From assembly GCA_947168065.1 (NCBI GenBank), contig CAMVKH010000001.1, forward strand, positions 372,001-436,000: a stretch of 64,000 nucleotides of DNA, in the 5' to 3' direction. Position 1 is the stretch's first letter. The number at the start of each line of letters is the position of its first letter. The notes under the pieces were generated by a model, which saw nothing but the letters and a program-made list of their open reading frames with translations, did no database searches and was not told the origin of the DNA. This document shows, one piece after another, positions 26,216 through 43,622 of the stretch. The stretch comes from an uncultured Bacteroidales bacterium. Lineage in GTDB: Bacteria > Bacteroidota > Bacteroidia > Bacteroidales > UBA932. The position numbers and the translations under genes were made by a program.

Positions 26216-26273
26216 GCAAAAATCTGCAAGCTTTGAAAGAATTCTCCGGTTTTCCTCAACGCTGGTCCTCATC

Positions 26274-26356
26274 AAAAAAAAGAGCGAGTCCGCAGACCCG
26301 CCCTTGATGTTTTCACAACGGAATAATCCTTATTGTGAATGGCTTCATTTTTAGTG
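26274..26356 (-). ncRNA. Putative tracrRNA of the type II-C system
   Basis: Minus strand ACACTAAAAATGAAGCCATTCACAAT is complementary to the crRNA repeat GTTGTGAATGGCTTTCATTTTTAGT (1-nt bulge, G-U wobble). Followed by hairpin GGGCGGGTC-TGCG-GACTCGCTC and T8. Preceded by TTTG-N20-TACCTTTG. Confidence 0.85.
26282..26303 (-). terminator. Rho-independent terminator of the tracrRNA
   Basis: 9-bp stem (two G-U) with TGCG loop, then eight T on the minus strand (26281-26274). Confidence 0.8.
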
Positions 26357-26359
26357 TTA

Positions 26360-26391
26360 CAAAGGTAGCTTAATCATCTGATAATTGCAAA
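26360..26391 (-). promoter_or_regulatory. tracrRNA promoter
   Basis: Minus strand TTTG (26391-26388), N20, TACCTTTG (26367-26360). Confidence 0.7.
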
Positions 26392-26432: not shown

Positions 26433-29400
26433 ATGAAGAAGATTCTCGGACTCGACTTAGGAACAGCCAGTATCGGTTGGGCGGTAATCGAAAGAGCAGA
26501 AAAAACAGATGAATCCACAAGAATCGTTGCCTGTGGTTCTCGCGTGGTACCTCTTTCTTCGGACGAAAAAGACAATTTCGAAAAAGGAAAATCAATAACG
26601 ACAAATGCGGATCGCAGATTAAAGCGAAGTATGCGCAGAAATCTTCAGAGAAGGAATTCCCGAAGAGATGCGCTGATTGCTCTTTTACGGTCGGAGGGCT
26701 GGATTCACGCGGACGACGTTTTGTCTGAAGAAGGTAAAGGGACCACCCATGAGACACTTCGACTGCGAGCGAAGGCTGCACAAGAGAAAATCAGTCTTTT
26801 ACAACTGGCCCGGGTACTGCTCTCGATCAATGGAAAGCGGGGCTATAAAAGCTCTCGAAAAGTCGATACGGGCGAAGAAGGGCAGTTAATTGACGGAATG
26901 AGCATCGCCAAGGAACTTCAGTTATTGCAGATTACACCTTCTGAATACCGTCAAAGACATATCTTGGATGGGAAACCGAAGCGATTTGATTTCTATCGCT
27001 CCGACCTTGAAAATGAGTATGAGAAGATATGGACTTTTCAACAACAGTTCTATCCCGATATCCTGACAGAAGAACTCCACAAGCAACTTCAACGGCAAGG
27101 AAAGCAAGGGACATCCTCGATTTTCCTGGCAAAACATGGCATTTATACTGCTGACAACAAAGGAAAAGACAAAGATAAAACGGCCGTAACGTGGCGAGTC
27201 GCCGCTCTCACGGAAAAGCTGGAGCCCGATGTCCTGGCCTACGTGATTTCAGATATCCGAAAAGACATCCAAAACTCCAGTGGGTACCTTGGGCAGATCA
27301 GCGATCGCAGCAAGGAATTGTTTTTCAACAATGAGACTGTCGGTCAATACCTTTTTCGACATTTACAAAAAGATCCTCTTTATAGTACACGGAATAAAGT
27401 TTTTTATCGGCAAGACTACATCGACGAATTCAACCGTATCTGGACAGTTCAGGCCGGTTATTACCCAGAATTGAACGATTCTCTGAGACGCAAAATTGCT
27501 GATCAGATACTGTTTTATCAACGACCGCTCAAATCGCAAAAGGGGCTGGTTTCTTTCTGCGAGTTCGAGAGCCATCCAATTGAAGTACTTGTAGACGGAA
27601 AGAAGCAAGTCAAAACTACGGGGAGCCGGTGCGCCCCTAAAGCATCATTACTTTTCCAAGAATTCAAGATTTGGCTGATCCTGAACAATTTGCGCATCAA
27701 AGACAGAGTGAACGATGGCGAACGAATACTGAGTCTTGATGAAAAGAATCTGCTTTCTCAAGAACTGTCTATTAAAAGAAGTATGAGACAGACGGAGGTT
27801 CTTAAGCACCTCGGTTTGGCTCCTCGCCGCTATGAACTCAACTATTCGGAAATAGAAGGGAACACGACTTTATCTGCACTTTTCTCCGCTTACCTCTCTA
27901 TCGTAGACTTATCGGGGCATGGAGAACACGATATTAATAAGCTGAATTACAATCAGGTCCTCTCAGTTGTTCAAACTGTCCTACCTGTTCTCGGCTGCAC
28001 AAACGACATCTTTCATTTTCAGCCTGATCTCCCGAAACAAGAATATGAGCAACAACCCCTATTCAAACTTTGGCACTTATTATATTCCTACGAAGGAGAT
28101 AACTCCCATTCCGGCAAAGAATCTTTATTCAGGCGAATATCAGACTTGACAGGATTGGACCGTGAATATGCAAAAGTACTCGGCGCCATTACGTTTAAAG
28201 ATGATTACGCCTCACTTAGCCATAAAGCTATCAGCAAAATCCTGCCGTACCTGAAAGAAGGAAACACTTATGACAAAGCCTGCACACGGGCTGGATACAA
28301 TCATTCTCACTTCGAAACTGCCGAGGAACGTGGCCAAAAGCAATTGCTGGATCATTTGGAGCAATTGCCCAAAGGATGTCTGAGGAATCCCGTCGTAGAG
28401 AAAATACTCAACCAAATGGTCAATGTCGTCAATGCTTCTACCCAAGCATACGGCAAACCCGATGAGATTCATATTGAATTAGCCCGTGAACTAAAACAGA
28501 GTGCAAGAGAAAGAGAAAAAGCCACTTCCGACATTGAAGGCAATAAAAAGAGGAACCTCGAAATTGTCAAAATCCTTCAAGAGGATTTCCACGTCACCAA
28601 TGTTAGGAAAACGGATATTCTCAGATATCGTCTCTATGAAGAATTGAAGGAAAATGGATTCAAAACCTTGTATTCAGACAAGTATGTACCAAGAGACAAA
28701 CTGTTTTCCAAAGAAATAGATATTGAACACATCATTCCTCAGGCAAGACTGTTTGACGACTCTTTCTCAAACAAAACAATTGAATACAAAGACATCAATA
28801 TTGAAAAAGGAAGACGGACGGCCGCGGACTTCGTCAAAGAAAAATATGGTGAGGAAGGTTATACTCGCTTCAGACTGAGGGTTGACGACCTTCGAAACAG
28901 AGGCGCCCTCTCTGACAAAAAGAGGAAAAATCTGCTGATGACGGAATCAGATATTCCCTCAGGTTTTGTAGACAGAGATATCCGGAATTCCCAGTACATT
29001 TCCAAGAAGGCTCAGGAGCTTTTGAAGGACTATGTAAGAATAGTCCTTCCAACATCGGGTTCTGTGACAGCCCGACTACGCGAAGAATGGCAGTTGGTCG
29101 ACGTGATGAAGGAACTTAACTTTGCGAAATATGAAAAAGCCGGCAAAACAGCGATTACCGAAGATATTGATGGCAGAATAATACGCAAAATTCAGGACTG
29201 GACCAAGAGAAACGACCATCGCCACCATGCAATGGACGCGATTACAATTGCTTTAACCAAACCCGAACACATACAGATCCTCAACAACCTCAATGCCCGA
29301 AGCGACAAAGACTCTGTTTTCTTCCAAATGCTTCAAAAGGAGACCGTTGTTATCGGGAACAAACGAATCTTCACGCCGCCGATGCCTTTGGACATCCTTC

Positions 29401-30551
29401 GTGGTGAGGTAAAAAGGTCTTTAAATGATACCCTCATTTCTATCAAAGCCAAGAATAAAGTTGTAACTAACAATATCAATAAAACCAAGACTAAAAACGG
29501 TTATCAACGGACGACAGAACTTACCCCAAGAGGTCCTTTGCATAAGGAGCAAGTCTATGGACAACGGTTCAGATATGAGACTTTCGAGGTGACGGTCAAC
29601 GCAAAGATGACGAAAGAAGTCATTGCCAACGTCGCTTCTAAGCGTCTCCGCGAAGCATTATTTATACGGCTGAATGAGTTTGATGGTGATCCCAAAAAGG
29701 CATTCACCGGAAAAAACGCATTAGACAAGAATCCCATTTATCTGGATTCCCTGCATACGGAAAAGGTTCCTCAGAAAGTCAAATGTACCCGTCTTGCCCC
29801 CTACTATTGCATCCGGAAAGATATCGGCCCGGATTTAAGTATCGACAAAATCATCGACACCAAAGTCCGTTCTCGAATTGAGGAGCGTATTTCAGAGTAT
29901 GGTGGAAACGCAAAAGCAGCCTTGTCCAATCTGGATACAAACCCCATTTGGCTCAACGATGCCAAAACAATTCCTATTAAACGTGTAACAATAGGCGAGA
30001 ACTTCGACCTATGTGCTATTCACAACAAAAGGGACAAGAATGGCCAAATAATCCTTGATGCGGATGGTAATACAATCCCCTCTGATTTCGTCAATCTCCG
30101 GAATAATCACCATGTCGCACTATATCTGGACGCTGAAGGAAAAGTTCAAGAATCCATCGTTCCTTTCTTTGAAGCATTGAATCGAGTCAACCAAGGGCTT
30201 CCCGTTGTCGACAGAATGTTTCATTCAGATCTGGGTTGGGAATTCCTTTACAGTATGAAAGTCAATGAGATGTTTGTTTTCCCGGACGAAGCTAATGGCT
30301 TTTATCCTCAAGAAATCGATTTGTTGAATCCAGCCAATGCTTCTTTGATAAGCCCGCATCTTTATAGAGTTCAAAAACTTAGTAGTAAAGATTATTATTT
30401 CCGGCACCATCAAGAAACTTCTATTGAAGACGATAAAGCATTAAGGGACATTACGTGGAAAAGAGTACAATCAATTCAGGCTATGAAGGATGTCGTTAAA
30501 GTACGGATTGACCATCTTGGCAGAATCGTCACCATCGGAGAGTATGATTAA
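26433..30551 (+). CDS. cas9: Type II-C Cas9 endonuclease, 1372 aa
   Basis: RuvC-I MKKILGLDLGTASIGWAVIE; bridge helix DRRLKRSMRRNLQRRNSRRDALI; RuvC-II DEIHIELARELKQ; HNH IDIEHIIPQARLFDDSFSNKT; RuvC-III NDHRHHAMDAITIAL. Confidence 0.98.
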   Translation: MKKILGLDLGTASIGWAVIERAEKTDESTRIVACGSRVVPLSSDEKDNFEKGKSITTNADRRLKRSMRRNLQRRNSRRDALIALLRSEGWIHADDVLSEEGKGTTHETLRLRAKAAQEKISLLQLARVLLSINGKRGYKSSRKVDTGEEGQLIDGMSIAKELQLLQITPSEYRQRHILDGKPKRFDFYRSDLENEYEKIWTFQQQFYPDILTEELHKQLQRQGKQGTSSIFLAKHGIYTADNKGKDKDKTAVTWRVAALTEKLEPDVLAYVISDIRKDIQNSSGYLGQISDRSKELFFNNETVGQYLFRHLQKDPLYSTRNKVFYRQDYIDEFNRIWTVQAGYYPELNDSLRRKIADQILFYQRPLKSQKGLVSFCEFESHPIEVLVDGKKQVKTTGSRCAPKASLLFQEFKIWLILNNLRIKDRVNDGERILSLDEKNLLSQELSIKRSMRQTEVLKHLGLAPRRYELNYSEIEGNTTLSALFSAYLSIVDLSGHGEHDINKLNYNQVLSVVQTVLPVLGCTNDIFHFQPDLPKQEYEQQPLFKLWHLLYSYEGDNSHSGKESLFRRISDLTGLDREYAKVLGAITFKDDYASLSHKAISKILPYLKEGNTYDKACTRAGYNHSHFETAEERGQKQLLDHLEQLPKGCLRNPVVEKILNQMVNVVNASTQAYGKPDEIHIELARELKQSAREREKATSDIEGNKKRNLEIVKILQEDFHVTNVRKTDILRYRLYEELKENGFKTLYSDKYVPRDKLFSKEIDIEHIIPQARLFDDSFSNKTIEYKDINIEKGRRTAADFVKEKYGEEGYTRFRLRVDDLRNRGALSDKKRKNLLMTESDIPSGFVDRDIRNSQYISKKAQELLKDYVRIVLPTSGSVTARLREEWQLVDVMKELNFAKYEKAGKTAITEDIDGRIIRKIQDWTKRNDHRHHAMDAITIALTKPEHIQILNNLNARSDKDSVFFQMLQKETVVIGNKRIFTPPMPLDILRGEVKRSLNDTLISIKAKNKVVTNNINKTKTKNGYQRTTELTPRGPLHKEQVYGQRFRYETFEVTVNAKMTKEVIANVASKRLREALFIRLNEFDGDPKKAFTGKNALDKNPIYLDSLHTEKVPQKVKCTRLAPYYCIRKDIGPDLSIDKIIDTKVRSRIEERISEYGGNAKAALSNLDTNPIWLNDAKTIPIKRVTIGENFDLCAIHNKRDKNGQIILDADGNTIPSDFVNLRNNHHVALYLDAEGKVQESIVPFFEALNRVNQGLPVVDRMFHSDLGWEFLYSMKVNEMFVFPDEANGFYPQEIDLLNPANASLISPHLYRVQKLSSKDYYFRHHQETSIEDDKALRDITWKRVQSIQAMKDVVKVRIDHLGRIVTIGEYD

Positions 30552-31467
30552 GCGCACTTTATATTTTGGAAACCCAGCATATCTCAGTGTCAGTAATTCA
30601 CAGCTTGTCATAACCAAGCCTTCTGATGGTGACTTGCCACCCGACGACCTGTCCCAACTCGTTAAAACCATCCCTATTGAAGATATCGGGGTGGTCGTTT
30701 TGGATCATCGACAATTAACGATCACTTCTTCTGTCTTCTCATGCCTACTCGATAACAATGTTGCCGTCATCACGTGTGATGAGAAATCAATGCCCTCAGG
30801 CTTACTACTCCCCCTGCATGCAAACACGTTGCAAAGCGAGCGTTTTCAGTATCAACTCAAGGCCTCTCTCCCTCTGCAAAAGCAACTATGGCAGCAAACA
30901 GTTGAAGCGAAGATACAAAACCAAGCGGCTGTCTTGAAGTATATCACGGGAGAAGAAACTCGGAATATGCTTGCCTGGGCTAACAGTGTAAAAAGTGGAG
31001 ATACCGACAATATGGAAGCCAGAGCCGCCGCCTATTACTGGAAGAATATCTTTCCGAATCTTGACTTCTTCACGAGAGATCGTTATGGCCCTAAACCCAA
31101 TAATCTCCTTAACTATGGATATGCCATTCTTCGTGCTGTCATTGCCCGCGCTTTGGTCGGCTCAGGGTTACTGCCAACGCTAGGCATTCATCATCATAAT
31201 CGTTACAACGCTTATTGTCTGGCTGACGATGTGATGGAACCTTATCGCCCTTTTGTGGACAAATTAGTTGTTGATATTGTCTCCGACAACAACCCTTGCC
31301 CTTCCCTTACCCGCGAAATAAAAACCCGCCTACTAAGTATCCCTGTTTTGGATGTGGTTATTGACGGGCATCGCAGTCCTTTGATCATAGCTGCCTCTAC
31401 AACATCAGCTTCTCTCTATAAATGCTTCGCTGGCATTTCCAGAAAAGTAATTTACCCTGAATTATGA
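30544..31467 (+). CDS. cas1: CRISPR-associated endonuclease Cas1 (type II)
   Basis: MIKRTLYFGNPAYLSVSNSQLVI...LNYGYAILRAVIARALVGSGLLPTLGIHHHNRYNAYCLADDVMEPYRPFVD. Overlaps the cas9 end by 8 bp. Confidence 0.97.
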   Translation: MIKRTLYFGNPAYLSVSNSQLVITKPSDGDLPPDDLSQLVKTIPIEDIGVVVLDHRQLTITSSVFSCLLDNNVAVITCDEKSMPSGLLLPLHANTLQSERFQYQLKASLPLQKQLWQQTVEAKIQNQAAVLKYITGEETRNMLAWANSVKSGDTDNMEARAAAYYWKNIFPNLDFFTRDRYGPKPNNLLNYGYAILRAVIARALVGSGLLPTLGIHHHNRYNAYCLADDVMEPYRPFVDKLVVDIVSDNNPCPSLTREIKTRLLSIPVLDVVIDGHRSPLIIAASTTSASLYKCFAGISRKVIYPEL

Positions 31468-31799
31468 GCACCCGGTTCAGTGAATACCGAGTTATGTGGG
31501 TACTTGTATTTTTTGATCTTCCAACAGAAACAAAAAGGGAGCGGAAGGCTGCCGCTAAATTTAGAAAAGACTTGATCAGCGATGGCTTTACAATGTTCCA
31601 ATTCTCTATCTACCTCCGGAATTGTCCTTCTATGGAAAATGCGAAAATGCACACAAAAAGGATTCGGGGGTTTCTTCCGGAATATGGTAAGGTCGGTATA
31701 ATCTGCATCACCGAGAAGCAGTTTGACAACATGGAACTATTCGTCGGCAGGAAGAACTCAGAATTGCCACGAATTGAACAACAACTCGAGTTGTTCTGA
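31464..31799 (+). CDS. cas2: CRISPR-associated endonuclease Cas2
   Basis: YRVMWVLVFFDLPTETKRERKAAAKFRKDLISDGFTMFQFSIYLR. Confidence 0.96.
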   Translation: MSTRFSEYRVMWVLVFFDLPTETKRERKAAAKFRKDLISDGFTMFQFSIYLRNCPSMENAKMHTKRIRGFLPEYGKVGIICITEKQFDNMELFVGRKNSELPRIEQQLELF

Positions 31800-31830
31800 A
31801 GTGTTTTTTCTTTTCTAAACAACATCACAA

Positions 31831-31865
31831 AGCACAGTTTATCAACCATTTAGATAAACTGTGCT
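31831..31865. promoter_or_regulatory. Leader-side 13-bp perfect hairpin running into the first CRISPR repeat
   Basis: AGCACAGTTTATC-aaccattta-GATAAACTGTGCT; the last 3 nt (GCT) are the first 3 nt of repeat 1. Confidence 0.7.
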
Positions 31866-33062
31866 GTTGTGACGATGTCAAAGATACTAAAAATGAAAGC
31901 CATTCACAACTTGACCGTCTTCGGGACGAACATCTTCAGGCTGTTGTGACGATGTCAAAGATACTAAAAATGAAAGCCATTCACAACTTGATCCGCTGCG
32001 GATTAGCTGGGGCGGGCGCTGTTGTGACGATGTCAAAGATACTAAAAATGAAAGCCATTCACAACTGGTAGCCGCGTCAGAAGATAAACAATGACGCTGT
32101 TGTGACGATGTCAAAGATACTAAAAATGAAAGCCATTCACAACTCGATGCGGCGAACGCCACGCAATCGTCCGGCTGTTGTGACGATGTCAAAGATACTA
32201 AAAATGAAAGCCATTCACAACCGCCAGCACTGACGGCGTGGTCCGAATAGAGCTGTTGTGACGATGTCAAAGATACTAAAAATGAAAGCCATTCACAACT
32301 GATGCAGATCGCTTCCGTAACGACGATCTGCTGTTGTGACGATGTCAAAGATACTAAAAATGAAAGCCATTCACAACATGAAGGTGCGGTTATATACTGC
32401 ACGTATTGCTGTTGTGACGATGTCAAAGATACTAAAAATGAAAGCCATTCACAACCGCCGCGCCGAATGTAATAACGACGGCTGCGCTGTTGTGACGATG
32501 TCAAAGATACTAAAAATGAAAGCCATTCACAACGCAAGTTGCAGTCGCAGCGTCTAGCAGATGGCTGTTGTGACGATGTCAAAGATACTAAAAATGAAAG
32601 CCATTCACAACTTAAATTGTTTTTCCTTGAGTAATCCAATTGCTGTTGTGACGATGTCAAAGATACTAAAAATGAAAGCCATTCACAACATACATTATCT
32701 GCGTATTGCGGATCCCGTCGCTGTTGTGACGATGTCAAAGATACTAAAAATGAAAGCCATTCACAACTCAGGGACGGGGTTGTTGATGCGCTGCTCAGCT
32801 GTTGTGACGATGTCAAAGATACTAAAAATGAAAGCCATTCACAACGCCCGATTCCGTAATCGTCGCGGTAATCGGCTGTTGTGACGATGTCAAAGATACT
32901 AAAAATGAAAGCCATTCACAACCGGCGTGTGGTTCGACGGAAAGAACCACCGCTGTTGTGACGATGTCAAAGATACTAAAAATGAAAGCCATTCACAACT
33001 GGCGGTACTCGTTGTTGTCCGGCTCGCGCGCTGTTGTGTCGATGTCAAAAACACTAAAAATC
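31863..33062. CRISPR. CRISPR array: 15 perfect 48-nt repeats plus one degenerate terminal repeat, 15 spacers of 29-30 nt
   Basis: Repeat gctgttgtgacgatgtcaaagatactaaaaatgaaagccattcacaac starts at 31863, 31940, 32018, 32096, 32174, 32252, 32330, 32408, 32486, 32564, 32642, 32720, 32798, 32875, 32952; degenerate copy at 33030. crRNA sense inferred as minus. Confidence 0.98.
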
Positions 33063-33369
33063 AAGCAAAAGCCAAATTGTTAATGGAATTGATCCTTGCA
33101 GCGAAAGATTCATCAAATCTCGCTGTATGTAATTCATATTTCAGTTGGAGACGCATCAAGGATTCTGCGGGAATGCCCAGTGCGGCTTCAAACAGCAGTG
33201 CAGTCTTTGTAGTCACGGGGCGTTTCCCATTCAATATCTCGTTAAGCACAGAGTAAGTCATACCCAACGCATCAGCAAGCCTACGTTGGGAGATACCACG
33301 AAACTCGATCTCATCTTTGATCACATCTCCCGGATGAGTCGGAATAAAACCATAACCCAGTTCTGCCAT
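33061..33369 (-). CDS. HigA-family antitoxin (XRE helix-turn-helix)
   Basis: IPTHPGDVIKDEIEFRGISQRRLADALGMTYSVLNEILNGKRPVTTKTALLFEAALGIPAESLMRLQLKYEL. Confidence 0.92.
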   Translation of the reverse strand: MAELGYGFIPTHPGDVIKDEIEFRGISQRRLADALGMTYSVLNEILNGKRPVTTKTALLFEAALGIPAESLMRLQLKYELHTARFDESFAARINSINNLAFA

Positions 33370-33374
33370 AATTC

Positions 33375-33692
33375 TTATCTATAATGCTTGGATAATTCAA
33401 GAAGTCTGCAAATAGTGACAACAACATCTCCTCCTTCCTTTCTGCTAGAGAATTCCAAACGATACTGATCGTTGATTGCAACTGATTCGGTGCCGGCTTT
33501 GTCTCCCGAGAGCGCCTCATACCGCAAAGAATTATACCTAAAGAGGTCCTCGATGCGTGAGACTGATTCCATAATATCCACTATCTTGACATATTTCCTG
33601 ACAATCTGCGGTTGGAATCGATGCTTTTTGTCACTTGCATGCCCTGTATAATACAGTTCTGAAAGATATGCCTTGTCAAACTCAATAATCAT
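33375..33692 (-). CDS. HigB/RelE-like toxin
   Basis: IEFDKAYLSELYYTG...NSLRYEALSGDKAGTESVAINDQYRLEFSSRKEGGDVVVTICRLLELSKHY; directly upstream of the antitoxin. Confidence 0.85.
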   Translation of the reverse strand: MIIEFDKAYLSELYYTGHASDKKHRFQPQIVRKYVKIVDIMESVSRIEDLFRYNSLRYEALSGDKAGTESVAINDQYRLEFSSRKEGGDVVVTICRLLELSKHYR

Positions 33693-39067: not shown

Positions 39068-40618
39068 TTAATAGCCCTGATTCTGGGTAAGTTTGGTGTT
39101 GGCAAGCCGGTCAGAATCCGGAATCGGGAAAAGGGCGCGATAGCTGTCAACGGCGGTACCGCCCTGGACGCCGCCCTTCCACTGCCAGACATAGTCCGAA
39201 CTGGTGAACAGGCCGAAGCGGATCAGGTCGCTGCGGCGCCAGCACTCCTGGTAGAGTTCGCGGCCGCGCTCGTCGATGATCTCGTTCAGCGTGAGGGCAT
39301 TGACTGCCGGCATACCGGCACGCTCGCGAACCTGGTTGAAGGCCGAGAGGCCATCGATCGAGGCACCGCGGGCAGCGCACTCAGCAGCCATCAGCAGCAC
39401 GTCGGCGTAGCGCATCATCGGGAAGTCGGTGTCGACGAAGCCGAGCTCCTGGCCCGGGGTGCCGTCACTCTTGATGTTGCGGAACTTCATGAAGGCATAG
39501 CCGTTGGTGAACTCGCCGATGTCGTCGATGCTCTTCTGCTGGGTAGCCGTGTAGAAGAGGTTGCGGGCGTCGGCGGAGCTGAACTTGTCGTAGAATTCAG
39601 GCGTCGTGCGGAGACCGCCCCAGCCGGAGGAGATACCCAGGGCTGCAGGGTCCATCTCGCCGCCCGTGGAGGCGAAGATCAGGTAGTTGGTCGCACCGTA
39701 GCTGGTGGTGTTGACGCCGTCCTGCTCGATGGCGAAGATGATCTCGTCGGTGCAGCGGTCGTTGTCGGCCAGGAACAGCTCCTGATACGGGCTGAAGTCG
39801 CCGGAAGAAGTGGTGTGGAGCTTGTAGCCGTCACCCATCAGGCTGCTGAGCACCTGGGCGCACTTGTCGTACATCGCGGTGCCCGTATAGACCTGGGCGT
39901 TCAGATACAGCTTGGCAAGCAGGAACTTGGCCACACCCTTGTCGGCGCGGGCATAGCCGTTGCCGCGGGGAGCTGCAAGCGCGCTGTTGTTGATCAGGTC
40001 GCTGAGTTCCTTCTCAAGCCAGTTGAAAAGGTCGGCACGGTTGATCTGGTCGGGGAAGGCACCCACCACGCTCGTCTCGTCAGCAAACGGCACGTTGCCG
40101 AAGTTGTCGATGGCGTGGTAGTAAGCCAGGGCGCGGAGCACGCGGGCCTCGGCGATGAACTCTTCCTTGTTGGGGAAAGACACGCTGGAAGCCTGGGCTT
40201 CGCGGATGAACTCGTTGGCAGCGGACACCTGCATGAAGATGCGGGAGTAGAACGCGTAGATGAACGTATCGTCCGTCGTCCAGTTCATATAGTGGAAATT
40301 CTTGATGGTCTGGTCATTCCAGCCGCAGACCGACTCATCGGTCGTCAGTTCGCTGTGGTGGTACAGGCCACGGATGTACTGCGAGGCACCTCCGTCAAGA
40401 CCGGAGATGGAAGCACTTCCGTTGGCACCGTAGTAACCCGAGGTGGCGAAGCCCGTATAGACACCCGCCAGGAAGGAGGTGAAGGAGGCCTCGTCGACGA
40501 GGGCCTTGTCCGCCGTGTTGGCGTTCGGGTCGATCGGCGTGACATTGAGGTCACCGATGCAGGAGGTCAGCGCGGCAGAGATGGCAAGGATGCCGAAAAT
40601 ATATTTGATCGTTTTCAT
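39068..40618 (-). CDS. susD: SusD/RagB-family nutrient-binding outer-membrane lipoprotein
   Basis: IKYIFGILAISAALTSCIGDLNVTPIDPN...YHAIDNFGNVPFADET...RYADVLLMAAECAARG...FNQVRERAGMP. Confidence 0.93.
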   Translation of the reverse strand: MKTIKYIFGILAISAALTSCIGDLNVTPIDPNANTADKALVDEASFTSFLAGVYTGFATSGYYGANGSASISGLDGGASQYIRGLYHHSELTTDESVCGWNDQTIKNFHYMNWTTDDTFIYAFYSRIFMQVSAANEFIREAQASSVSFPNKEEFIAEARVLRALAYYHAIDNFGNVPFADETSVVGAFPDQINRADLFNWLEKELSDLINNSALAAPRGNGYARADKGVAKFLLAKLYLNAQVYTGTAMYDKCAQVLSSLMGDGYKLHTTSSGDFSPYQELFLADNDRCTDEIIFAIEQDGVNTTSYGATNYLIFASTGGEMDPAALGISSGWGGLRTTPEFYDKFSSADARNLFYTATQQKSIDDIGEFTNGYAFMKFRNIKSDGTPGQELGFVDTDFPMMRYADVLLMAAECAARGASIDGLSAFNQVRERAGMPAVNALTLNEIIDERGRELYQECWRRSDLIRFGLFTSSDYVWQWKGGVQGGTAVDSYRALFPIPDSDRLANTKLTQNQGY

Positions 40619-40631
40619 ATCTCACGCTGTA

Positions 40632-43622
40632 TTAGAAGTTGAACTTGAGACCGAGCACGAAGGTCCGCGGGCGCGGATAGAGCGTGCCGTCGATACCGCC
40701 GTACACCTCGGGATCCATTCCCTTGTACTTGGTCAGGGTGCAGATGTTCTGGACCGTGCCGAAGATATTGAGGGAAGCGTAGTTGTCGCCGCCTACCCGG
40801 AAGAGTTTCGGGAAGGTGTAGCCGAGGGTGAAGTTGTCGAGCTTCAGGAACGAGGCGTTGGTGATGTAATAGTCCGACGTGTACTGGGCCTGGGAGAAAT
40901 AGGAATCCCAGGCGGAGGCCAGGCGGTTGCTCACGAAACTGTTGGTCCAGAGGTCGGCCAGCATTTCCGTATCGGAAGCCACGTTGTTGTAAACCCAGTT
41001 GCCGACGGAGGCGTGGCCGGAGAGGGCAGCCGTCCAGTTCTTCCAGCTGAAGTTGGTGTTGAAACCGAAGGTGAAGTCAGCGTCGGGCTTGTGGTAGAAG
41101 TACTTGTCGTCGGCGTTGATCACACCGTCGTTGTTGCGGTCCACATAGACGCCGCTGATCGGGTAGCCTTTCTCGTCATAGACCTGCTGGTACACGTAGA
41201 AGGCGCGCATCGGGTGACCGACCTGGTGCATCTGCACGTTGTTGCCGGTACCGCCCGAGACACCGCCCGTCTCAACGCCCGTGGCGTTGTCTTCGGAAGC
41301 GGTCAGACGCGTGATCTCGTTGTAGTTGTAGGCCACGTTGAAGCCGGCCGTCCAGCTCATGTCCTTGCGCTCGATCAGGATGCCGTTCAGACCGAGTTCG
41401 ACACCGAGGTTCTTCATGTCACCGATGTTGGTGTTCAGGTAGTTGGTCAGGTTGGAGAGGGCCGGGACAGGAATGTAGTTCAGAATGTCGCGGGTATCCC
41501 TCCGGTAAAGGTCGAGGTTGGCCGAGAGACGGTCGTTCCAGAAGCCGAGGTCCATACCGACGTTGTAGGTCGTGGTGGTCTCCCAACGGAGGTCGGCGCT
41601 GTAGCCCAATGCGGAGATCGGGGTGATGAGCCGGTCGTTGAAGTAGTAGTAGGAACCCAGCTGGTTGGTCAGGAACTGTGCGAAGGTGTCGTAATAGCCG
41701 CCCACCTCCTGCTGTCCGGTCTCACCCCAGGAGAGACGCAGCTTCAGGGTGCTGAGCGTTCCGGCCTGCGGCATGAAGTCTTCCTTCATGACGTTCCAGG
41801 CGAAGGCCACGGACGGGAAGATACCCCATTTGTGGTTCTGGAAGCGCGAGGTACCGTCGGCGCGCAACGTAGCGGTCAGCAGGTATTTCTCACCGTAGGT
41901 ATAGTTGGCACGACCGAAGAACGAAATCAGGTAGAGCTCGCCCTTGCCGATCGACTCGCCAAGCTTGGCCTTGTCGCTCAGACGGATGGTATTGCTGTTG
42001 CTCTCGCTGTAGAAGTGCTGCCAGGAATAACCGGCCATCAGGTCGACGTTGTGCTTGCCGAAGTCCTTGTTGAAGTCGCCGTAAAATTCCAGCGTGGTGT
42101 TGCGGCGGGAATAGTCGTAATCGGTATGCTGGCCGCCGCCCGACTGGTTGGTGTTGTGGTACGAAGCCTCAGAGCCCTTGGCCAGTTCGGTCACGCCCAC
42201 ACTCTTCGCCCAGTCGAGACCGAGGTTGAGGTTGAAGCGGAGCGCCTCGAAACCGTGGACCTTGTAGTCGAACTGTGCATTGCCGATGAAACGGTAGGCG
42301 TTCGCCGTATCGTTCTTCGCGTCGAGCAGGCCGACCGGGTTCATCGTGGCCATCGTGTTGATGTTGCCGCTCTGGTCGAACCAGGTGGTGTAGCCGTTCA
42401 GGTTGTAACCGCCGATTTTGTTGTACACCGGCTTGGTCGGGTCATAATGGTTGGCCGCGCCGATGGCATCCTGGTTGGCGTACTGGTTGAAGGCGTAGGT
42501 TCCCTTACCGTTCAAGTTGACGGTCAAGTGGTTGTTCAGGAAACTCGGCGAGAGGTTGAGCGATGCGGTGGCACGGTCCATCTTCGAGCCGATCAGCGTA
42601 CCGTTCTGCTCGGTGAAACCGCCGGAAACACGATAGGGCATGAAATCACCGATCTTGCCGCCTACGCTCAGGTTGGCGTCGTGCGAAAGGGCGTTGTGGA
42701 AGATTTCATCCTGCCAGCCGTGTTTGTTGATTTTACCCACTGCATCTGCAGGGATCTTGCCGCCGATGCCGAGATTGGCCTCAGCCGGGGAATTTGCACC
42801 GTAGTAGGAACGGATGATTTCCACGATGCCGTCAGCATCCAGCAGGGTGTTGTACTTGGCAAGCGTGTTGTACGACGCGGTGTAGTCGACGGCCACGTGC
42901 GGAATCTTGCTGGCGACCTTCGAACCCTTCTTGGTCGTGATCACGATGACGCCGTTCGATGCGCGGGAACCGTAGATGGCGGTCGCCGAGGCATCCTTCA
43001 GCACGGTGAAGCTTTCGATGTCTTCAGGGTTGATCGAGGAAAGCGGGTCGGACATACCGCTGATGCCGTCGTTCGAAACCGGCAGGCCGTCGATGACGAT
43101 CAGCGGGTCGTTGCTCGCATTGATGGAGGAGCCGCCGCGGATACGGATCGTGGCACCGGAACCCGGCATACCGGAACCGGCCGTGACCACCACACCGGCG
43201 CTCTTGCCGCGGAGCAGGTCAGCCGGGGTCGTGATGACACCTTTGTTGATTTCATCTGCGCGGACGGTCGAGACCGATCCGGTCATGTCGCTTTTCTTGA
43301 CCGTACCGTAACCGATGACGACCACTTCGTCCAGAAACTCGTGATCATCCTCCATAAGCACGGTGGCGGCCTTTCCGGCCTCGACCGTGACGGTCTTCAG
43401 ACCCAGGAAGCTGATCTCGATCAGCGTGTTGGCAGAAGGGACGTTGAGCGTCCAGGCCCCGTCCAGATCCGTCTGCACGCCGTTGCTGGTACCCACTTGG
43501 ATAACAGCAGCCCCGGCCACGGGACCGAACTTGTCTTCCACCACACCTTTCGCAGTGTACTGCGCGAAAGCGGAGGCACAAGTCAGTACCAGGACCGAGA
43601 GCAGAGTAAGAATCTTCTTCAT
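40632..43622 (-). CDS. susC: SusC/RagA-family TonB-dependent transporter
   Basis: GVVEDKFGPVAGAAVIQVGTSNGVQTDLDGAW...DEVVVIGYGTVKKSDMTGSVSTV...YGSRASNGVIVITTKKG; C-terminal FVLGLKFNF. Confidence 0.95.
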   Translation of the reverse strand: MKKILTLLSVLVLTCASAFAQYTAKGVVEDKFGPVAGAAVIQVGTSNGVQTDLDGAWTLNVPSANTLIEISFLGLKTVTVEAGKAATVLMEDDHEFLDEVVVIGYGTVKKSDMTGSVSTVRADEINKGVITTPADLLRGKSAGVVVTAGSGMPGSGATIRIRGGSSINASNDPLIVIDGLPVSNDGISGMSDPLSSINPEDIESFTVLKDASATAIYGSRASNGVIVITTKKGSKVASKIPHVAVDYTASYNTLAKYNTLLDADGIVEIIRSYYGANSPAEANLGIGGKIPADAVGKINKHGWQDEIFHNALSHDANLSVGGKIGDFMPYRVSGGFTEQNGTLIGSKMDRATASLNLSPSFLNNHLTVNLNGKGTYAFNQYANQDAIGAANHYDPTKPVYNKIGGYNLNGYTTWFDQSGNINTMATMNPVGLLDAKNDTANAYRFIGNAQFDYKVHGFEALRFNLNLGLDWAKSVGVTELAKGSEASYHNTNQSGGGQHTDYDYSRRNTTLEFYGDFNKDFGKHNVDLMAGYSWQHFYSESNSNTIRLSDKAKLGESIGKGELYLISFFGRANYTYGEKYLLTATLRADGTSRFQNHKWGIFPSVAFAWNVMKEDFMPQAGTLSTLKLRLSWGETGQQEVGGYYDTFAQFLTNQLGSYYYFNDRLITPISALGYSADLRWETTTTYNVGMDLGFWNDRLSANLDLYRRDTRDILNYIPVPALSNLTNYLNTNIGDMKNLGVELGLNGILIERKDMSWTAGFNVAYNYNEITRLTASEDNATGVETGGVSGGTGNNVQMHQVGHPMRAFYVYQQVYDEKGYPISGVYVDRNNDGVINADDKYFYHKPDADFTFGFNTNFSWKNWTAALSGHASVGNWVYNNVASDTEMLADLWTNSFVSNRLASAWDSYFSQAQYTSDYYITNASFLKLDNFTLGYTFPKLFRVGGDNYASLNIFGTVQNICTLTKYKGMDPEVYGGIDGTLYPRPRTFVLGLKFNF

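Follow-up and report, generated by a model that had tools for sequence, protein, structure and literature searches.

Where does transcription of a CRISPR array start, and in which direction does it run, when the array seems to point towards its own cas genes? The question is raised by a locus in a 64,000-nucleotide stretch of DNA from an uncultured Bacteroidales bacterium, analyzed here as a whole and called the window. The locus is type II-C in a Bacteroidales member: only cas9, cas1 and cas2 adjoin the array, with neither csn2 nor cas4, and the operon formed by these three genes stops 63 nt before it. The features on which the argument rests, and their neighbors, are the following:

26273..26355, minus strand: tracrRNA, made of an anti-repeat with hairpins and a T run after it; its duplex with repeat nt 1-25 has -32.3 kcal/mol
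26360..26391, minus strand: tracrRNA promoter by motif match, TTTG-N20-TACCTTTG
26433..30551, plus strand: cas9, 1372 aa (TIGR01865, E 4.1e-151; PADLOC Cas9)
30490..31467, plus strand: cas1, type II (TIGR03639, E 8.8e-91)
31464..31799, plus strand: cas2 (TIGR01573, E 1.8e-20)
31800..31862, strand unspecified: leader, the acquisition end
31863..32999, minus strand: CRISPR array of 15 identical 48-nt repeats, with the crRNA strand opposite to cas9-cas1-cas2
31879..31910, minus strand: promoter-like element in the repeat next to the leader, GTTG (31907-31910)-N20-TATCTTTG (31879-31886), predicted +1 at 31874
33030..33077, minus strand: degenerate repeat, cas-distal and oldest (the 'extra' repeat), its tracrRNA-pairing half diverged and its box decayed to TGTTTTTG
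33061-33369 and 33375-33692, minus strand: toxin-antitoxin pair of the higB-higA type (HigB-like PF05015; HigA TIGR02607)
39068-43622, minus strand: SusD- and SusC-like genes, judged from translations alone

The translations, again taken alone, suggest that the CRISPR locus lies within a starch-utilization region (22572-43622), with amylase-like genes on both sides.

The tracrRNA fixes the direction of the array. It is encoded on the minus strand, upstream of cas9, and its anti-repeat pairs with nt 1-25 of the repeat in its minus-strand reading (GTTGTGAATGGCTTTCATTTTTAGTATCTTTGACATCGTCACAACAGC), which makes the GTTG end the 5' handle and places the crRNAs on the minus strand. This pairing with the 5' half of the repeat supports the claim of a preliminary description of this DNA that array transcription opposes the cas genes. 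A scan against Rfam for a tracrRNA or CRISPR family gave no match. The pairing ends at nt 25, where a second motif, TATCTTTG, starts.

This motif occupies nt 25-32 of the repeat and fits TAnnTTTG exactly; the Bacteroides sigma-ABfr consensus is TAnnTTTG at -7 with (T)TTG about -33 (PMC7366714). Together with GTTG it forms the same GTTG-N20-TATCTTTG element in all 15 intact repeats, the last copy at 32968-32999, and the repeat coordinates, motif sequences and N20 spacing given in the preliminary description are correct for each of the 15. Its statement that every repeat carries a promoter needs one exception: the box is present in 15 of the 16 repeats of the window and has lost its TA in the degenerate one (TGTTTTTG). 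The pattern GTTG-N18..21-TAnnTTTG matches 16 times in the window, where dinucleotide shuffles expect 0.15; 15 matches are the minus-strand array copies, all with N20, and the 16th is unrelated and lies inside cas9. The full consensus, TTTG-N18..21-TAnnTTTG, is found five times (0.19 expected), always with N20, and one of the five is the tracrRNA promoter. Genome-wide, TTTG-N15..25-TAnnTTTG occurs at 167 sites vs 34 for the reversed pattern, and among the first 100 of the 167 sites listed the spacing peaks at N19 (25 sites) and N20 (33 sites; 58 together). Mapping in F. psychrophilum places the box at -12 to -5 (PMC9723704), which puts the predicted +1 at repeat nt 37 and leaves 12 nt of repeat before the spacer, in agreement with the start about 12 nt before each spacer that had been proposed.

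The two halves of the element do not carry equal weight. GTTG matches TTTG at -33 in three of four positions, and its N20 distance falls in the N19-N20 preferred by the genome. Nevertheless, nearly all such repeats have GTTG, with or without a -7 box, and GTTG is bound to tracrRNA pairing; we therefore rejected it as independent evidence for a -33 element, contrary to its earlier use as promoter evidence, and count only the -7 box as real evidence.

The box was followed in relatives, which are loci anchored on a type II Cas1 and taken from whole genomes across the order and the phylum; arrays were called in them and the repeats oriented by their GTTGTG 5' end, not by the box. This gave 149 distinct repeats, 85 of which are Bacteroidales repeats that are long (42-50 nt) and run opposite to cas1. 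TAnnTTTG is found on the crRNA strand in 71 of these 85 and on the other strand in one, where shuffling expects 4.9. Relaxed to the core TAnnTT at nt 22-29, the box is found in 77/85 (11-12 expected) and, outside the order but within its class (Flavobacteriales and their kin), in 14 of 15 long repeats (2.2 expected). A second set of named genomes, essentially all Bacteroidota, served as a replicate: the box occurs in 20/21 long reversed Bacteroidales repeats and on the opposite strand in 0/21, Marinilabiliales repeats bear it too, and Cytophagales, Chitinophagales and Flavobacteriales have lineage variants such as TATCTTTC, TAGCTTAG and TATTTTTA. Across relatives the position of the box slides from nt 23 to 28 and the sequence 3' of it varies freely; repeat pairs with 0-25% tail identity both carry the box in 69-81% of cases. 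Counting independent origins by tail clustering was dropped, since single linkage merged nearly all repeats into one group. Judged from the repeats themselves, the arrangement appears to be kept over about a hundred related arrays, and this comparative evidence argues for the earlier reading of the element as a putative promoter of the Bacteroidetes sigma type.

The tracrRNAs of relatives show the same box: TAnnTTTG lies 7-16 nt before the anti-repeat in 51/76 (1/76 in a control window), and 32 of these 51 boxes have TTG at N18-N20 upstream. Spacing is less strict than the window alone suggests. That the repeat shares N20 with the tracrRNA promoter is true in the window, but only locally, and conservation of GTTG-N20-TAnnTTTG in related repeats holds for the box and not for the distance, the gap from GTTG to the box being mostly N18 (33 repeats) or N19 (24), with N20 in 8 and N21 in 4. 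The exact N20 of the window is a local value inside a working range.

Other repeat forms were seen among the relatives. In other-class genomes (Ignavibacteriota-like and others: L165, L171, L197, L199-L204, L324, L338, L346), GTTCTTTG or TTTCTTTG replaces the Bacteroidales TATCTTTG, and some of their tracrRNA upstream regions keep TAnnTT. In L259, L265, L276 and L280 a GATCTTTGACA block stands displaced, close to the 3' end of the repeat, replacing the usual box or beside it, and II-C arrays of the type studied here, as in L219/L225, have a 47-nt repeat with TTAGTATCTTTGAACC. B. thetaiotaomicron VPI-5482 is without a CRISPR array (PMC7366714). Many reversed 36-nt repeats (L166, L172-L174, L176, L178, L181, L183-L186, L188, L189, L194, L278) end in GATATT, TATATT or TAGATT, which resembles the Neisseria promoter element at the repeat-spacer border.

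Arrays of the opposite orientation provide a comparison. Twelve Bacteroidales arrays with 36-37-nt repeats run in the same direction as cas1 while still lying downstream of cas2. Their repeats contain the box in 0/12, and their leaders contain TAnnTTTG, directed into the array and 92-164 nt upstream, in 10/12, vs 4/85 inward-directed boxes in the leaders of the reversed long Bacteroidales arrays (Fisher 5e-9). A scan of the leader in the window (31800-31862) likewise found no TAnnTTTG directed into the array. An array directed away from the cas genes would thus have its promoter in the leader, and one directed towards them would have it in the repeats. The orientation of the array changes only twice on the Cas1 tree, so the contrast amounts to one or two evolutionary events, and a test by independent pairs was set aside because two changes give too little power. 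We lean slightly towards a general form of this relation, in which Bacteroidota II-C arrays would exist in two mirror states: 46-48-nt repeats with a sigma-ABfr promoter, running towards cas, and 36-37-nt repeats without one, running away from cas from a promoter about 90-165 nt upstream in the leader, the move of the promoter being tied to a flip of the array with the acquisition end unchanged.

Two Paludibacteraceae MAGs (L333, L343) combine long II-C repeats and a weaker box, TAATTTAG, with the same direction as cas1; their arrays look as if inverted. Six of the same-way 36-nt leaders (L082, L084, L092, L148, L239, L253) share a CACTTCC-like motif and often also contain TTCTTTGA, perhaps an acquisition or RNA element.

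The acquisition end itself is on the side of cas2. Among arrays with one degenerate end, in the window and its relatives, that end is cas-distal in 42 and proximal in none, and experiments on a Riemerella II-C array with 47-bp repeats found acquisition at the cas2 side (PMC6008519); both support the earlier proposal of cas-proximal spacer acquisition. In degenerate repeats, the mutated share is 52% in the tracrRNA-pairing half (nt 1-18), 6% in the TTTG of the box and 11% in the tail. Decay of the guide half with retention of the box fits the account of Feussner et al. 2025, in which the extra repeat loses guide function and should retain its promoter (PMC12080349); the extra repeat of the window is nonetheless without TA. 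We do not take this decay as proof of selection on a promoter, as the tail has been preserved to a similar degree as the box.

At the acquisition end, the newest repeat joins the leader in a predicted structure:

31823..31874, minus strand: 21-bp hairpin between the leader and the final 12 nt of the newest repeat (-29 kcal/mol, z -6.9), beginning at the predicted start of the last repeat

Transcripts from the newest repeat would enter the leader and, in the window, begin with this hairpin. Hairpins of this kind are enriched in relatives: z is below -2 in 24/84 Bacteroidales, and eight or more base pairs between repeat and leader are found in 37, where 13.9 are expected. Repeat-leader hairpins were seen in L099, L221, L212 and L177, sometimes terminator-like, with a T run after that of L212. 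Such hairpins may stop array transcription short of an antisense run into cas2, or may terminate the cas mRNAs.

Altogether, we consider it very probable that a functional sigma-ABfr promoter lies on the crRNA strand of the repeat, as the Bacteroidota version of a solution already known from II-C systems. The basis of this reading is the motif, its strand, position and conservation, its counterpart at the tracrRNA, and the exchange between leader and repeat; that RNA polymerase uses the element, and exactly where it would start, we infer from sequence. Each intact repeat would then carry a promoter for the primary sigma factor (sigma-ABfr type), with the -33 TTG in its first four bases and the -7 box at nt 25-32, and transcription would begin about 12 nt before each spacer. 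Each pre-crRNA would consist of a 12-nt repeat tail, the whole spacer and the tracrRNA-pairing half of the next repeat, and its synthesis would head for the leader and the cas genes, which are convergent with the array. Within the repeat, the 5' half would act as the tracrRNA-pairing guide handle and double as the upstream promoter region, and the 3' half would hold the -7 box and the start site and be dispensable in the mature crRNA. New spacers would join at the cas2 side, and each insertion would copy a repeat and hence a promoter.

Three other explanations were weighed. The TATCTTTG block could be conserved for repeat recognition by Cas1-Cas2 or for pre-crRNA processing, and only look like a promoter. 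At its two 'n' positions the box has TC in 58/73 repeats, and tracrRNA promoters vary there (TA 21, TC 9), suggesting that the box may be constrained by more than promoter strength; in some Ignavibacteriota-like and a few Bacteroidales lineages the TA is missing (GTTCTTTG or GATCTTTG) and the CTTTG core stays; and the tail of degenerate repeats is kept about like TTTG. We still judge this explanation improbable, given that the box matches the host's own sigma consensus, is strand-specific (71 vs 1) and has promoter spacing, that its position slides, and that same-way arrays, whose Cas1 belongs to the same family, have it in the leader and not in the repeat.

The array could also be mainly read through from the higBA operon, which adjoins it upstream on the crRNA strand, with the repeat promoters weak or silent. 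The stop codon of higA lies inside the degenerate repeat, so that higA ends in codons made of repeat sequence and any read-through would continue into the array. Against this, the box is general among relatives, and Feussner 2025 (PMC12080349) considers transcription that enters the first repeat from outside to be harmful, since an extraneous crRNA is made. Read-through is in any case compatible with repeat promoters, the two sources not being exclusive, and as the main source it seems unlikely to us. Hardly credible are plus-strand crRNAs from a leader promoter beside cas2, the usual CRISPR layout and one that seems valid for the 36-37-nt same-way arrays, given the anti-repeat pairing, the absence of TAnnTTTG from the window's leader and its scarcity in comparable ones.

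A promoter within each repeat has precedents outside the phylum. In Neisseria and Campylobacter, a sigma70-type -10 lies at the 3' end of a 36-nt repeat. Repeat-embedded promoters in the II-C systems of Neisseria meningitidis and Campylobacter jejuni are described in the passages of PMC8092290, PMC10309648 and PMC12080349 that cite Zhang 2013 and Dugar 2013. The array studied here would share with them the II-C type, a promoter in each repeat, short transcripts made with no promoter in the leader, and a direction towards the acquisition end. Set against the sigma70-type element as generally described for them, it differs in having a box of the TAnnTTTG type at nt 25-32 of a 48-nt repeat, so that the whole spacer and 12 nt of repeat should be transcribed, unlike in those systems. 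Compared with an ordinary sigma-ABfr promoter, the element sits inside CRISPR repeats, is repeated, and has GTTG at -33.

Closer at hand, a repeat-encoded promoter was proposed for the II-C array of F. columnare on the strength of a TTG lying 33 bp before the spacer (Hoikkala 2021, PMC8092290), where eight RNA-seq reads within the array, sparse as they are, run towards the leader (PMC8092290), and a study of F. psychrophilum repeats the TTG argument (PMC10309648). These arrays share with ours the phylum, a TTG 33-35 bp upstream of the spacer and transcription towards the leader; the reports name TTG alone, with no -7 box in the repeat, and the F. columnare repeats are 36 nt. For CRISPR1 of Riemerella anatipestifer, which has the same gene order and cas2-side acquisition and 47-bp repeats (PMC5006608, PMC6008519), the authors in 2016 found no promoter in the repeat with a generic predictor and placed it in the leader (PMC5006608). 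A repeat-encoded promoter in Bacteroidota II-C arrays is thus already known as a proposal, made for Flavobacterium on TTG alone. In a search that covered few subscription papers and preprints, we found no paper naming a -7 box in such repeats or the leader/repeat exchange; what our analysis would add is the putative -7 element, its conservation and its apparent relocation from leader to repeat.

If the repeat promoter is real, the II-C rule of promoters within repeats would reach the gut-dominant Bacteroidota, written in their own promoter code, and the Flavobacterium and Riemerella studies would have missed or denied its -7 element. The crRNA strand and start site would be readable directly from sequence, which would be of practical value for using native Bacteroides Cas9 arrays as guides, and the presence of a promoter may be the reason for a repeat length of 46-48 nt instead of 36 nt. 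The leader-driven sister arrays would provide an evolutionary control for the change in transcription direction. Should the two mirror states also prove true, they might account for the unusual repeat length, and 'II-C means promoter in repeat' would fail as a general rule.
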